From Micromonospora narathiwatensis (lineage in GTDB: Bacteria > Actinomycetota > Actinomycetes > Mycobacteriales > Micromonosporaceae): a DNA stretch of 64,000 bases. The position numbers and the translations under genes were made by a program. The notes below the pieces were generated by a model. It was not told where the DNA came from. It did no database searches and saw only the letters and a list, made by a program, of their open reading frames with translations. Location: assembly GCF_900089605.1 (NCBI RefSeq), contig NZ_LT594324.1:124001-188000 (forward strand). The letters are read 5' to 3'. Below, piece after piece: positions 38,387 through 40,455 of this stretch (positions within the stretch are counted from its first letter, which is position 1; each line of letters opens with the position of its first letter).

Positions 38387-39502
38387 ATGACCGAGTGGGG
38401 GGACGGCACCCGCAGCGTGCACGCCGGGCTGCCCGCGCCGACGCCGGGCGAGCCGTTCCTGCCCGGGCCGGTCTTCGCCGCGCCGTACCACCTGGACCCG
38501 TGGCAGGGGCCGACGGCGACGCCCAACGGGTACGGCCGGCCGGACAACCCGACCCGGCGGCTGCTGGAGGCGGCCATCGGCGAGTTGGAGGGCGGGGACT
38601 GCCGGGTCTTCGCCAGCGGCCAGGCGGCCATCACCGGGCTGCTGCTGGCGCTGCTGCGCCCCGGCGACACGGTGCTGCTCCCCGCCGACGGCTACTTCCC
38701 GGTGCGCGCCTTCGCCACCGACACCCTCGCCGGCATCGGGGTGCGGGTCGGCTTCGTGCCGACCGCCGGGCCGTACCCGTCGTTCTCCGGCGTCCGGCTG
38801 GTGCTGCTGGAGACCCCGGCGAACCCCGGCCTGGACGTGGCCGACGTGCCCGCGCTGGCCGCCGCGGCGCACGCCGCCGGGGCCCTTCTGGCGGTCGACA
38901 ACACCACCGCCACGCCGCTCGGGCAGCGCCCGTTGGACCTCGGCGCCGACGTGGTGGTGGCCTCCGGCACCAAGGCGCTCACCGGCCACTCCGACCTGTT
39001 GCTCGGGTACGTGGCGACCCGCTCCGCCGAGCTGCTCGACCCGGTGACCGCCTGGCGGACCACCACCGGCGCGGTGCCCGGACCGTTCGACTGCTGGCTG
39101 GCCCACCGCTCGTTGGCGACCATGGACCTGCGGCTGGCCCGGCAGGCCGCCAACGCGGAGGCGCTCGCCCGGCTGCTCGCCGGCCGCGCCGACGTGACCG
39201 GGCTGCGCTGGCCCGGGCTGCCGGGGGACCCGGCGTACCCGGTCGCCTCGGTCCAGATGCGACGGATGCCCGGGGTGCTCTCGTTCGACCTGGGCGACGC
39301 CGACCGGGTGGCCCGGTTCCTCGACGCGTCGCGCCTGGTCGCCGCCGCCACGTCGTTCGGCGGGGTGCACACCACCGCCGACCGGCGGGCCCAGTGGGGC
39401 GACGACACCGCCCCCGGCTTCGTCCGGCTCTCCTGCGGCATCGAGGACCCCGCCGACCTGGTGGCCGACGTGGCCGCCGCGCTGGACGCCAGCGCGACCT
39501 GA
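38387..39502 (+). CDS. Cys/Met-metabolism PLP enzyme (cystathionine gamma-synthase/lyase family)
   Basis: A 371-residue fold-type I PLP enzyme of transsulfuration. The PLP Lys is in ASGTKALTGHSDLLLGYV; other landmarks are YGRPDNPTRRLLEAAIGELE, CRVFASGQAAITG and FGGVHTTADRRAQWG near the C-terminus. It is shorter than classic MetB (about 385-400) and the residues that separate synthase from gamma- or beta-lyase are not clear, so no gene symbol is given. It starts 7 bp after gpsA, so it is probably in the plsC operon. Confidence 0.9.
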   Translation: MTEWGDGTRSVHAGLPAPTPGEPFLPGPVFAAPYHLDPWQGPTATPNGYGRPDNPTRRLLEAAIGELEGGDCRVFASGQAAITGLLLALLRPGDTVLLPADGYFPVRAFATDTLAGIGVRVGFVPTAGPYPSFSGVRLVLLETPANPGLDVADVPALAAAAHAAGALLAVDNTTATPLGQRPLDLGADVVVASGTKALTGHSDLLLGYVATRSAELLDPVTAWRTTTGAVPGPFDCWLAHRSLATMDLRLARQAANAEALARLLAGRADVTGLRWPGLPGDPAYPVASVQMRRMPGVLSFDLGDADRVARFLDASRLVAAATSFGGVHTTADRRAQWGDDTAPGFVRLSCGIEDPADLVADVAAALDASAT

Positions 39503-39517: not shown

Positions 39518-39669
39518 TATCGTGTCGGGCAGCCACGGCCCTCACGGGCCCCGACCGGAGGAGGTGAGACCGATCCACCAGACGAGGACCGGCGCTCCCT
39601 CCGAGTCCACGTCGCCCCGGGACTAGGGCGACGCCGGGAGCGTCGACGAGCGCTCCCGAAAGGCATCAC
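39518..39669 (+). promoter_or_regulatory. Structured leader with short reading frame: putative translational attenuator
   Basis: TATCGT (39518-39523) is a likely -10 box. After it come a hairpin GGCCC-TCAC-GGGCC (39537-39550), a purine-rich GGAGGAGGTGAG, a short reading frame to 39626, hairpin A (39611-39617 with 39626-39632) that encloses the stop codon, and hairpin B (39635-39642 with 39651-39658) abutting the AAAGG ribosome site of the methyltransferase. A third hairpin C (39629-39634 with 39640-39645) excludes both A and B. This resembles the switch of drug-induced erm leaders. Confidence 0.6.
39564..39626 (+). CDS. Leader peptide reading frame (20 codons) of the methyltransferase
   Basis: GTG to TAG, product MRPIHQTRTGAPSESTSPRD. 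The GTG overlaps a GGAGGTGA sequence that is itself a perfect anti-SD match, with only 2 nt between GGAGG and GTG; so either this GTG is used or the ribosome starts at the in-frame ATC at 39573 (a rare start, as in infC). The stop codon is inside hairpin A. The peptide resembles no protein family. Confidence 0.4.
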   Translation: MRPIHQTRTGAPSESTSPRD

Positions 39670-40455
39670 ATGGCACCGATCCATCCCGACCGTCCCGCCC
39701 TCGTCGCCCGGCTGCGCGCCGCCGGTTGCGTCTACGCCGAGGACGAGGCGGAACTGCTGATCGCCGCCGCCGACACGGCCGAGGCACTGACCGACCTCGT
39801 CGACCGCCGGGTCGCCGGCCTGCCGCTGGAACACCTGCTCGGCTGGGCCGAGTTCTGCGGCCTGCGGGTCGCCGTCGAACCCGGGGTGTTCGTGCCCCGG
39901 GGCCGTACCGCGCTGCTGGTCGCCGCCGCCGCGTCGGTGGCCGGGCCGGCCCCCGCCGTGCTCGACCTCTGCTGCGGGTCGGGCGCCGCCGCACTGGTGC
40001 TGCACGGCCGGCTCGCCCCGCGCTGGCTGGCCGCCGCCGACATCGACCCGGTCGCGGTGGCCTGCGCCCGACGCAACCTCGCCCCGTTCGGCGTACCCGT
40101 CTACCAGGGCGACCTGTTCGCGCCGGTCCCGCCGGAGTGGCGGGGCCGGCTCGACCTGGTGGTGGCGAACGCCCCGTACGTGCCGAGCGGCGCGGTGGCG
40201 CTGATGCCGGCGGAGGCGCGGCTGCACGAGTCGTCGGTGGCCCTGGACGGCGGCGCGGACGGGCTGGCCGTGCTGCGCCGGGTGGCGGCCGGCGCGGCCG
40301 AGTGGCTCGCCCCGGGCGGGCACCTGGCGGTCGAGGTGAGCGTCACGCAGTCCGGGGCGCTCTGCGCGGTGCTGGCCGGGGCGGGCCTGGTGCCGACGGT
40401 CGTGCACGACGACGACCTGGATGCCACGGCGATCACTGCCCGCCGGCCCGCCTGA
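39670..40455 (+). CDS. HemK/PrmC-related class I methyltransferase of unknown target
   Basis: A 261-residue SAM-dependent methyltransferase close to PrmC, which methylates the Gln of the GGQ motif in release factors. The SAM site is VLDLCCGSGAAALVL and the catalytic NPPY appears as NAPY in VVANAPYVPSG. The actinobacterial 'PrmC-related' group has just this NAPY-type motif and an undefined substrate. The ATG has AAAGG upstream at 6 nt, next to the hairpin B of its leader. ArfB, another GGQ protein, is encoded in the same window but not next to it. Confidence 0.88.
   Translation: MAPIHPDRPALVARLRAAGCVYAEDEAELLIAAADTAEALTDLVDRRVAGLPLEHLLGWAEFCGLRVAVEPGVFVPRGRTALLVAAAASVAGPAPAVLDLCCGSGAAALVLHGRLAPRWLAAADIDPVAVACARRNLAPFGVPVYQGDLFAPVPPEWRGRLDLVVANAPYVPSGAVALMPAEARLHESSVALDGGADGLAVLRRVAAGAAEWLAPGGHLAVEVSVTQSGALCAVLAGAGLVPTVVHDDDLDATAITARRPA

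Follow-up and report, generated by a model that had tools for sequence, protein, structure and literature searches.

Directly 5' of a gene for a PrmC-related methyltransferase of Micromonospora narathiwatensis lies a short leader with a small reading frame of its own, which raises the question of whether, and at which step, translation of the leader decides translation of the gene. The locus belongs to a window of 64,000 nucleotides, by which we mean the whole stretch of DNA that was analysed (contig NZ_LT594324.1, positions 124,001 to 188,000). In the erm and cat translational attenuators, a ribosome stalled on the leader frees the Shine-Dalgarno sequence (SD) of the gene, and a preliminary description of the locus had proposed an erm-like attenuator, built from three perfect stems (A, B and C), of which C would become available once a ribosome stopped on the 5' arm of A. 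All three stems exist, but the switch differs from that first drawn, and our best model is an erm-type attenuator with a different stall point.

Layout and conserved helices of the leader

The features of the locus are listed below in window coordinates, with the evidence for each in brackets.

38387–39502, + strand: cystathionine gamma-lyase gene, the upstream neighbour (NF005758, 573.8 bits)
39518–39523, + strand: probable −10 hexamer TATCGT of a putative leader promoter (read from the sequence)
39530–39669, + strand: leader RNA, directly 5' of the TIGR03704 methyltransferase gene
39553–39576, + strand: arm 1, which spans the leader SD and start codon and pairs with arm 2 at 39586–39607 (minimum-free-energy fold; swap test 0/2000)
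39559–39567, + strand: leader SD, AGGAGGTGA
39573–39626, + strand: leader reading frame, AUC start, 17 codons, TAG stop at 39624–39626, (M)HQTRTGAPSESTSPRD (conservation of frame, stop and start codon)
39591–39599, + strand: arm 2 core GGCGCTCCC, partner of arm 1 or of arm 3 (helix D) (conservation of helix D)
39611–39632, + strand: hairpin A, with the leader stop codon in its loop or 3' edge (94.2% of main-helix cells paired)
39636–39644, + strand: arm 3, GGGAGCGTC, partner of arm 2 (helix D) or of arm 4 (hairpin B) (helix conservation and swap tests)
39651–39658, + strand: arm 4, CGCTCCCG, 3' side of hairpin B, abutting the methyltransferase SD (92.7% of cells paired; swap test 0/2000)
39659–39663, + strand: methyltransferase SD, AAAGG (read from the sequence; ATG at 39670)
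39670–40455, + strand: PrmC-related methyltransferase gene, 261 aa, TIGR03704 (332.6 bits, cut-off 248.8)

The window methyltransferase thus exceeds the curated cut-off of TIGR03704 (PrmC_rel_meth), and a ROK-family protein (PF00480) is encoded downstream of its gene. On the upstream side, the gap between the stop of the cystathionine gamma-lyase gene and the probable −10 hexamer is 15 nt; among 188 related leaders, a TANNNT hexamer has its commonest positions 40–55 nt 5' of the leader start codon. The leader SD is a full match to the 3' end of 16S rRNA. The segment GAGGAGGTGAG is invariant in 58/58 aligned methyltransferase leaders, at loci that had been collected with motifs containing most of this segment, and GGAGGTG is present in 38/38 leaders of alignment A5, while the position of the gene SD is occupied in relatives by AAAGG, GGAGG or a close variant.

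The predicted fold of the leader beats those of its dinucleotide shuffles, both at 39530–39672 (z = −4.40, 0/200 shuffles as good) and over the longer stretch 39518–39690 (z = −2.95, 3/200). The fold contains a 19-bp hairpin, made of arms 1 and 2, that was absent from the preliminary description. In the minimum-free-energy fold the GG of the gene SD (39662–39664) also pairs with GCC (39532–39534) near the transcript start, closing the whole leader, and a small 5' hairpin, GGCCC/GGGCC, stands at 39537–39550, with a similar GGCCC/GGGCC there in many methyltransferase leaders. Scanning six leaders (that of the window and five other loci) with the Rfam 15 covariance models returned no match above threshold, just two miRNA models below threshold at the window and a sub-threshold cspA match outside the leader of L262.

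All three stems first described can be read from the window as perfect: A with 7 bp (39611–39617, GTCGCCC, and 39626–39632, GGGCGAC), B with 8 bp (39635–39642, CGGGAGCG, and 39651–39658, CGCTCCCG) and C with 6 bp (39629–39634, CGACGC, and 39640–39645, GCGTCG). As had been claimed, C shares bases with both A and B, the short frame ends on the edge of A, and the methyltransferase ribosome site follows directly after B. Across 58 related methyltransferase leaders, A (together with helix D) and B co-vary. Helix D (39591–39599 with 39636–39644) is paired in 97.3% of cells, with two pairs changed on both sides, and the main helix of hairpin A in 94.2%, with three such pairs; jointly they are paired in 95.5% of 837 cells, 25 of which are changed on both sides, and 0/500 shuffles reach their covariation score. 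For hairpin B, 92.7% of 464 cells are paired and 10/500 shuffles reach the score. Stem C fares differently, since only 73.5% of its 339 cells are paired, a level equalled by 286/500 shuffles, with 154/500 reaching its covariation score; because it is not conserved, C is not supported as the switching helix. Nor is a stall on the 5' arm of A supported as the trigger. In place of C, the conserved alternative is the pairing of arm 2 with arm 3, opposed by that of arm 1 with arm 2.

The comparison thus points to three conserved helices, namely 1:2, which takes up the leader SD and start, 2:3, which is helix D, and 3:4, which is hairpin B against the gene SD. Seventeen hydrolase leaders from the same genus are without hairpin A, yet they keep 1:2, 2:3 and 3:4, with one inner 2:3 pair broken in six of them.

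Within Micromonospora, the methyltransferase query matched 61/61 relatives searched, some of the matches being PrmC-like paralogues, and the leader motif is present at 19 of the 30 best methyltransferase loci. At the other 11 (L013, L014, L019, L022 and L024–L030) the gene starts a few to ~20 bases past the end of the preceding gene, and L013 retains GCGCTCCCGGAGG, which resembles a remnant of arm 4 and the SD spared by a deletion. The exact motif GAGGAGGTGAGNYCGATC is present in 86/160 genomes of the genus (reversed control, 0). Among 94 distinct sites that were read, 76 lie before a methyltransferase gene, 15 before an unrelated alpha/beta hydrolase, and three were left unassigned by the script; on reading, two of these are hydrolase loci and one is cut by a contig end. 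Genome G172 carries three methyltransferase leaders identical over the compared stretch (C1:174191, C2:2798 and C2:9991, the latter two on a 25-kb contig), as would result from either a plasmid or an assembly duplication. Three leaders (L020, L021 and L124) carry an insert within the region of hairpin A whose sequence is a repeat of bases nearby, and in L021 the leader frame extends far beyond arm 3.

The leader reading frame and its start codon

Frame counts, swap tests and partial-transcript folding made use of a diverse set of 96 leaders, obtained from 98 by dropping L287, which is incomplete at the stretch end, and L288, a methyltransferase leader whose arms 3 and 4 were aligned as 5–6 nt. 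Read from the codon at 39573, the first stop falls within 45 nt before arm 3 in 95/96 of the diverse leaders and in 89/93 Micromonospora leaders, as compared with 17 and 23 of 96, and 15 and 2 of 93, for the other two frames; one of these alternative frames meets an earlier stop in 65/96 leaders. Of 74 Micromonospora methyltransferase leaders, 73 have a stop in the interval from arm 2 to arm 3, despite arm 2 being in two frames (offset modulo 3 of 0 in 48 and of 1 in 26), with more frames found elsewhere. Such constraint indicates that the short leader frame is real and translated.

The preliminary description had left the start open between a GTG and the ATC at 39573. In 62 leaders found with covariance models, the codon at this position is ATC in 23, ATG in 22, ATT in seven, GTG in seven and an ATG shifted by one base in three, counts that are biased in this direction because the models were built from leaders with such codons; the pattern scan of GTDB genomes, for its part, admitted just [AG]T[CG] there. 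The monooxygenase leaders have ATG in 22/22, eight methyltransferase leaders from outside Micromonospora have ATT (four), ATC (two) or GTC (two), and two further methyltransferase leaders from distant families have GTT and GTC. The question is largely settled by the codon counts: since substitutions that resemble start codons fall on 39573, AUC 39573 is more likely to be the start than the GTG inside the SD, at 39564, whose spacing to the SD would also be poor. As both codons belong to one frame, the frame test by itself does not discriminate between them.

The first codons read M-N-A-V-S/T in most classes (Ala in 78/96, Val in 66/96 and Ser/Thr in 74/96 at codons 3–5, all with variable third bases), while those of the Micromonospora methyltransferase leaders differ, being mostly H/R/P/Q and then Q. 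In ermC, arrest is caused late by the nascent peptide. A conserved arrest peptide of this kind was not found among the aligned leaders, in which only the first codons are conserved and arm 2 is read in several frames. The conserved peptide codons for which the preliminary description had suggested looking thus do not extend past about codon 5, and, with the frame beyond that point not conserved as peptide, late nascent-peptide arrest is unlikely. We rejected it in the Micromonospora methyltransferase leaders, where the arm-2 region is read in two frames, as well as elsewhere, where it is read in more.

A leader family across Actinomycetia and the genes behind it

Three covariance models were used to follow the leader outward. 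R1, built from methyltransferase leaders, matches 99/250 genomes of the family at E ≤ 0.01 (18/44 genera); R2, built from hydrolase leaders, matches 67/298 genomes of the order (24/76 genera), and its alignment A4 was left out as too ragged; R3, built from 38 mixed leaders, mostly of monooxygenases, matches 101/345 genomes of the class at E ≤ 0.001 (37/126 genera) and 11/198 genomes in a sample of the phylum, all 11 inside the class. R3 recovers the window leader (E 6.6e-7 in 76.5 kb, 5.7e-5 in its own genome). A GTDB pattern scan gave at least 119 places, of which 80 were listed, and the genera among the matches listed include Streptomyces, Nonomuraea, Amycolatopsis, Rhodococcus, Nocardia, Arthrobacter, Cellulomonas and others. 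Seen from the gene, the leader is upstream in 16 of the top 30 of 76 TIGR03704 loci of the class at E ≤ 2e-5, with a partial match in one more, and in 22 of the first 45. Judged by these searches, the leader is a widespread actinobacterial RNA family without an Rfam match in the six leaders scanned, and our search of open-licence full texts found nothing on it.

Most of 40 weaker R1 matches that were read stand directly 5' of a few gene types, that is, TIGR03704, several alpha/beta hydrolases, a rifampin-monooxygenase-like enzyme and a GNAT enzyme; L184 and L193 have no clear gene after the match. Classed by simple motifs, which leave 14/96 and 12/80 unclassified, among them L333, an ordinary gene start, the 80 pattern loci listed comprise 29 hydrolases, 21 rifampin monooxygenases, nine GNAT enzymes, six patatin-like proteins and three methyltransferases, the remainder being six unclassified and six that end at the edge of the retrieved stretch. 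A full-length monooxygenase scores 846.8 bits against NF033145 (cut-off 800), and one patatin-like and one GNAT representative are above the Pfam cut-offs (PF01734 and PF00583). Of another 20 matches, in distant families, 13 are followed by a readable gene, in every case for a hydrolase, a patatin-like protein or a methyltransferase; of the other seven, three are leaders without a visible gene and four do not match the leader motif. All the genes read encode enzymes, and neither whiB7 nor wblC was found among them.

Among the matches listed, genes of a patatin-like phospholipase family follow the same leader in Arthrobacter, Cellulomonas, Oerskovia and relatives (L303, L313, L334, L342, L344 and L347, with L343 similar), and we know of no link between this family and antibiotics. 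Identity of the hydrolase as a macrolide esterase found no support, its best solved relative being the esterase 4ao6 (1e-34), with no NCBIfam model above its cut-off. In the rifampin-monooxygenase ORFs that were read (L241–L350), 19/37 have an N-terminal extension of more than 30 residues, which in 18 of the 19 matches the hydrolase N-terminus. The leader was thus seemingly captured together with the first codons of a hydrolase gene, and it seems to have reached the monooxygenase by gene fusion with a hydrolase start.

A putative start-codon-gated switch and its alternatives

By overlap, helices 1:2 and 3:4 are mutually exclusive with 2:3. When the duplexes of the 96 diverse leaders were compared with swapped ones, the swaps equalled the leaders' own arms in 0/2000 permutations for 1:2, 0/2000 for 3:4 and 31/2000 for 2:3, with 2000/2000 and 1368/2000 for the control pairs 1:3 and 2:4. 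The 2:3 helix is the weakest, its test being weak within gene classes (107/2000), and the unplanned pair 1:4 also beats its own swaps (12/2000). The start codon and arm 2 are 17–19 nt apart in 94/98 leaders (12, 15, 21 and 39 in the others), the arm 2 core of the window starting 18 nt past the first base of codon 39573, while the spacing from arm 2 to arm 3 varies from 17 to 74 nt. In E. coli, the downstream edge of ribosomes stalled at start codons lies at +16 to +18 by ribosome profiling (PMC12121999). By comparison of the leaders, then, the helices, the frame, the position of the start codon and the spacings are established.

We consider it rather probable that the leader is a ribosome-gated translational attenuator, in which a ribosome held at or near the leader start would let 2:3 form and turn the gene on; the direction of this response, the stall point and the trigger are what we infer. 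At rest, arms 1 and 2 would be paired with each other, taking up the leader SD and start codon, and arms 3 and 4 would form hairpin B next to the methyltransferase SD, leaving the gene poorly translated. A ribosome held at AUC 39573, or one to two codons from it, would cover arm 1, and its front edge would end at about the beginning of arm 2, leaving this arm free. Free arm 2 could then capture arm 3 during transcription, by which arm 4 and the SD would remain single-stranded and the methyltransferase would be made, whereas a ribosome moving on would cover arm 2, 3:4 would form and the gene would be off. The trigger would probably be antibiotics or other conditions that hold ribosomes at start codons. 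According to PMC12121999, tetracycline holds ribosomes at the start codon of E. coli toiL, derepressing topAI, and retapamulin, which also derepresses topAI, is proposed to act on toiL likewise.

Predicted folding is consistent with this order of events. With the RNA extended to arm 3, at least six expected 2:3 pairs form in 157/190 leaders when a ribosome is at the start codon and in 135/190 when it is at codon 2, as compared with 20/190 with no ribosome and 0/190 at codon 8. Once arm 4 is present, at equilibrium, the same level is reached in 63/190 leaders with the ribosome at the start codon, in 11 with none and in 0 at codon 8. Averages of simple SD accessibility did not separate the states, for which reason docking cost was used together with partial-transcript folding: across 170 leaders in all, a start-codon stall lowers the opening cost of the gene site by 0.5 (rifampin monooxygenase) to 3.5 kcal/mol (methyltransferases outside Micromonospora), a range taken over the classes with at least six leaders. 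Hairpin B abuts the gene SD and does not bury it, and the changes in docking cost are small. Given a weak 2:3 at equilibrium and a small drop in opening cost, the start-codon model requires folding in the order of transcription. Against it also stand GTC and GTT, which are not accepted start codons, at the start position of some methyltransferase leaders.

Part of this evidence would also suit a gate at the leader's stop codon, at which slow termination, mostly at UAG, would park a ribosome over arm 3, melt B and let the gene be translated; where the gene is PrmC-like, poorly working release factors would in this way feed back on it. The leader frame ends in TAG in 61/96 and 74/94 leaders, against 9/79 downstream ORFs, an excess that speaks for a termination-based gate. 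Arm 3 follows shortly after the first in-frame stop (95/96 and 89/93), and in the monooxygenase (17.0 to 10.3), GNAT and patatin classes the largest drop in docking cost is that for a ribosome on the last codon. We nevertheless regard such a gate as unlikely, because the stop lies from −17 to +21 nt from arm 3, so that a parked ribosome would not cover arm 3 uniformly, because 32/96 leaders use TGA, because none of the remaining enzyme types behind the leader is known to be connected with release factors, and because, in the methyltransferase classes, it is a ribosome at the start codon, not one at the last codon, that gives the larger drop in docking cost. TAG may also simply belong to the conserved structure.

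The strong conservation at the RNA level, with arm 2 read in different frames among members, could alternatively reflect a switch that binds a ligand or a protein (a riboswitch or protein site) or a DNA operator, the short frame being incidental. With frame, stop and start codon conserved far beyond chance, third bases varying at codons 3–5 while Ala, Val and Ser/Thr dominate there, and no Rfam match for the six leaders scanned, we give this reading little credence. Transcription attenuation, intrinsic or Rho-dependent, in place of translational control would be open to the same helices, which could expose or hide a Rho site, and toiL couples both controls in E. coli (PMC12121999), but the aligned leaders have hairpin B followed by the gene SD with no U run, and it too appears distinctly improbable. 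As for the version in which the ribosome arrests late, as in ermC, on the 5' arm of A, with C as the alternative helix, the perfection of all three stems in the window speaks for it; with C no better than shuffles, the peptide over A not conserved, and the hydrolase class of the genus keeping 1:2, 2:3 and 3:4 without hairpin A, it has become very hard to believe. Of the erm-like attenuator first proposed, the translated frame, the exclusive helices and the site before the methyltransferase SD stand, while stem C and the stall over A do not.

The proposed start-codon-gated attenuator shares with erm-type systems what appears to be a translated short frame, and mutually exclusive helices with covariation. 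Like erm and cat, and like vga and vmlR, whose attenuators are mentioned in PMC12121999, it has a short translated leader in which 2:3 opposes 1:2 and 3:4, and a ribosome stalled in the leader is proposed to free the gene SD. Unlike in those systems, the leader's SD and start codon themselves make up arm 1 here, a hold at the start is suggested by the spacing, the peptide loses its conservation past about codon 5, and at least five unrelated enzyme families share a single leader family. Start-codon stalling that opens a downstream ribosome site, as proposed here, resembles toiL, the uORF of E. coli topAI, for which PMC12121999 describes sensing of several drug classes, as may hold for the actinobacterial leader; the sequence and genes are unrelated, and toiL pairs lengthwise with the topAI site, in contrast to the three-way arm exchange here. 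The whiB7/wblC uORF, as presented in PMC7157823, is likewise actinobacterial, precedes a resistance regulator and is induced by translation inhibitors; the likeness is that of a uORF ahead of a resistance-type gene, and the difference is that it acts by transcription attenuation on a transcription factor, whereas the present leader is directly on enzyme genes. The rifamycin-associated element (RAE) is a 19-bp palindrome also found in the 5' region of rifamycin genes, with rox of S. venezuelae among its sites, and control of helD is described as transcriptional (PMC10719064). An RAE-like palindrome was found at 0/37 monooxygenase leader loci in the 130 nt 5' of arm 1, nor in shuffled sequence (also 0), by a strict test for a 19-mer with at least 8/9 complementary arm positions, which addresses palindrome shape rather than RAE sequence.

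Among the methyltransferase leaders that were read, as well as in one class of hydrolase leaders, the last base of the start codon is a pyrimidine (AUC, AUU, GUC or GUU), so what the switch senses may be 30S subunits that wait at a perfect SD where no good start codon follows. Rifampin targets RNA polymerase, which makes a ribosome-sensing switch an odd fit for this drug and raises the question of why a ribosome sensor would control a rifamycin-inactivating enzyme. To our knowledge, the substrate of the TIGR03704 methyltransferases is listed as unknown, and the leader offers a testable handle on them, by way of its inducer. Tentatively, and short of an even chance in our judgement, we suggest that a portable start-codon-gated ribosome sensor has been captured by unrelated detoxification and modification genes across Actinomycetia, forming a post-transcriptional resistance network that includes rifampin monooxygenase and in which TIGR03704 would be an inducible translation-stress or resistance factor. 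If this is true, a widespread actinobacterial ribosome-sensing RNA would link resistance-type genes that have until now been treated separately, rifampin monooxygenase included.
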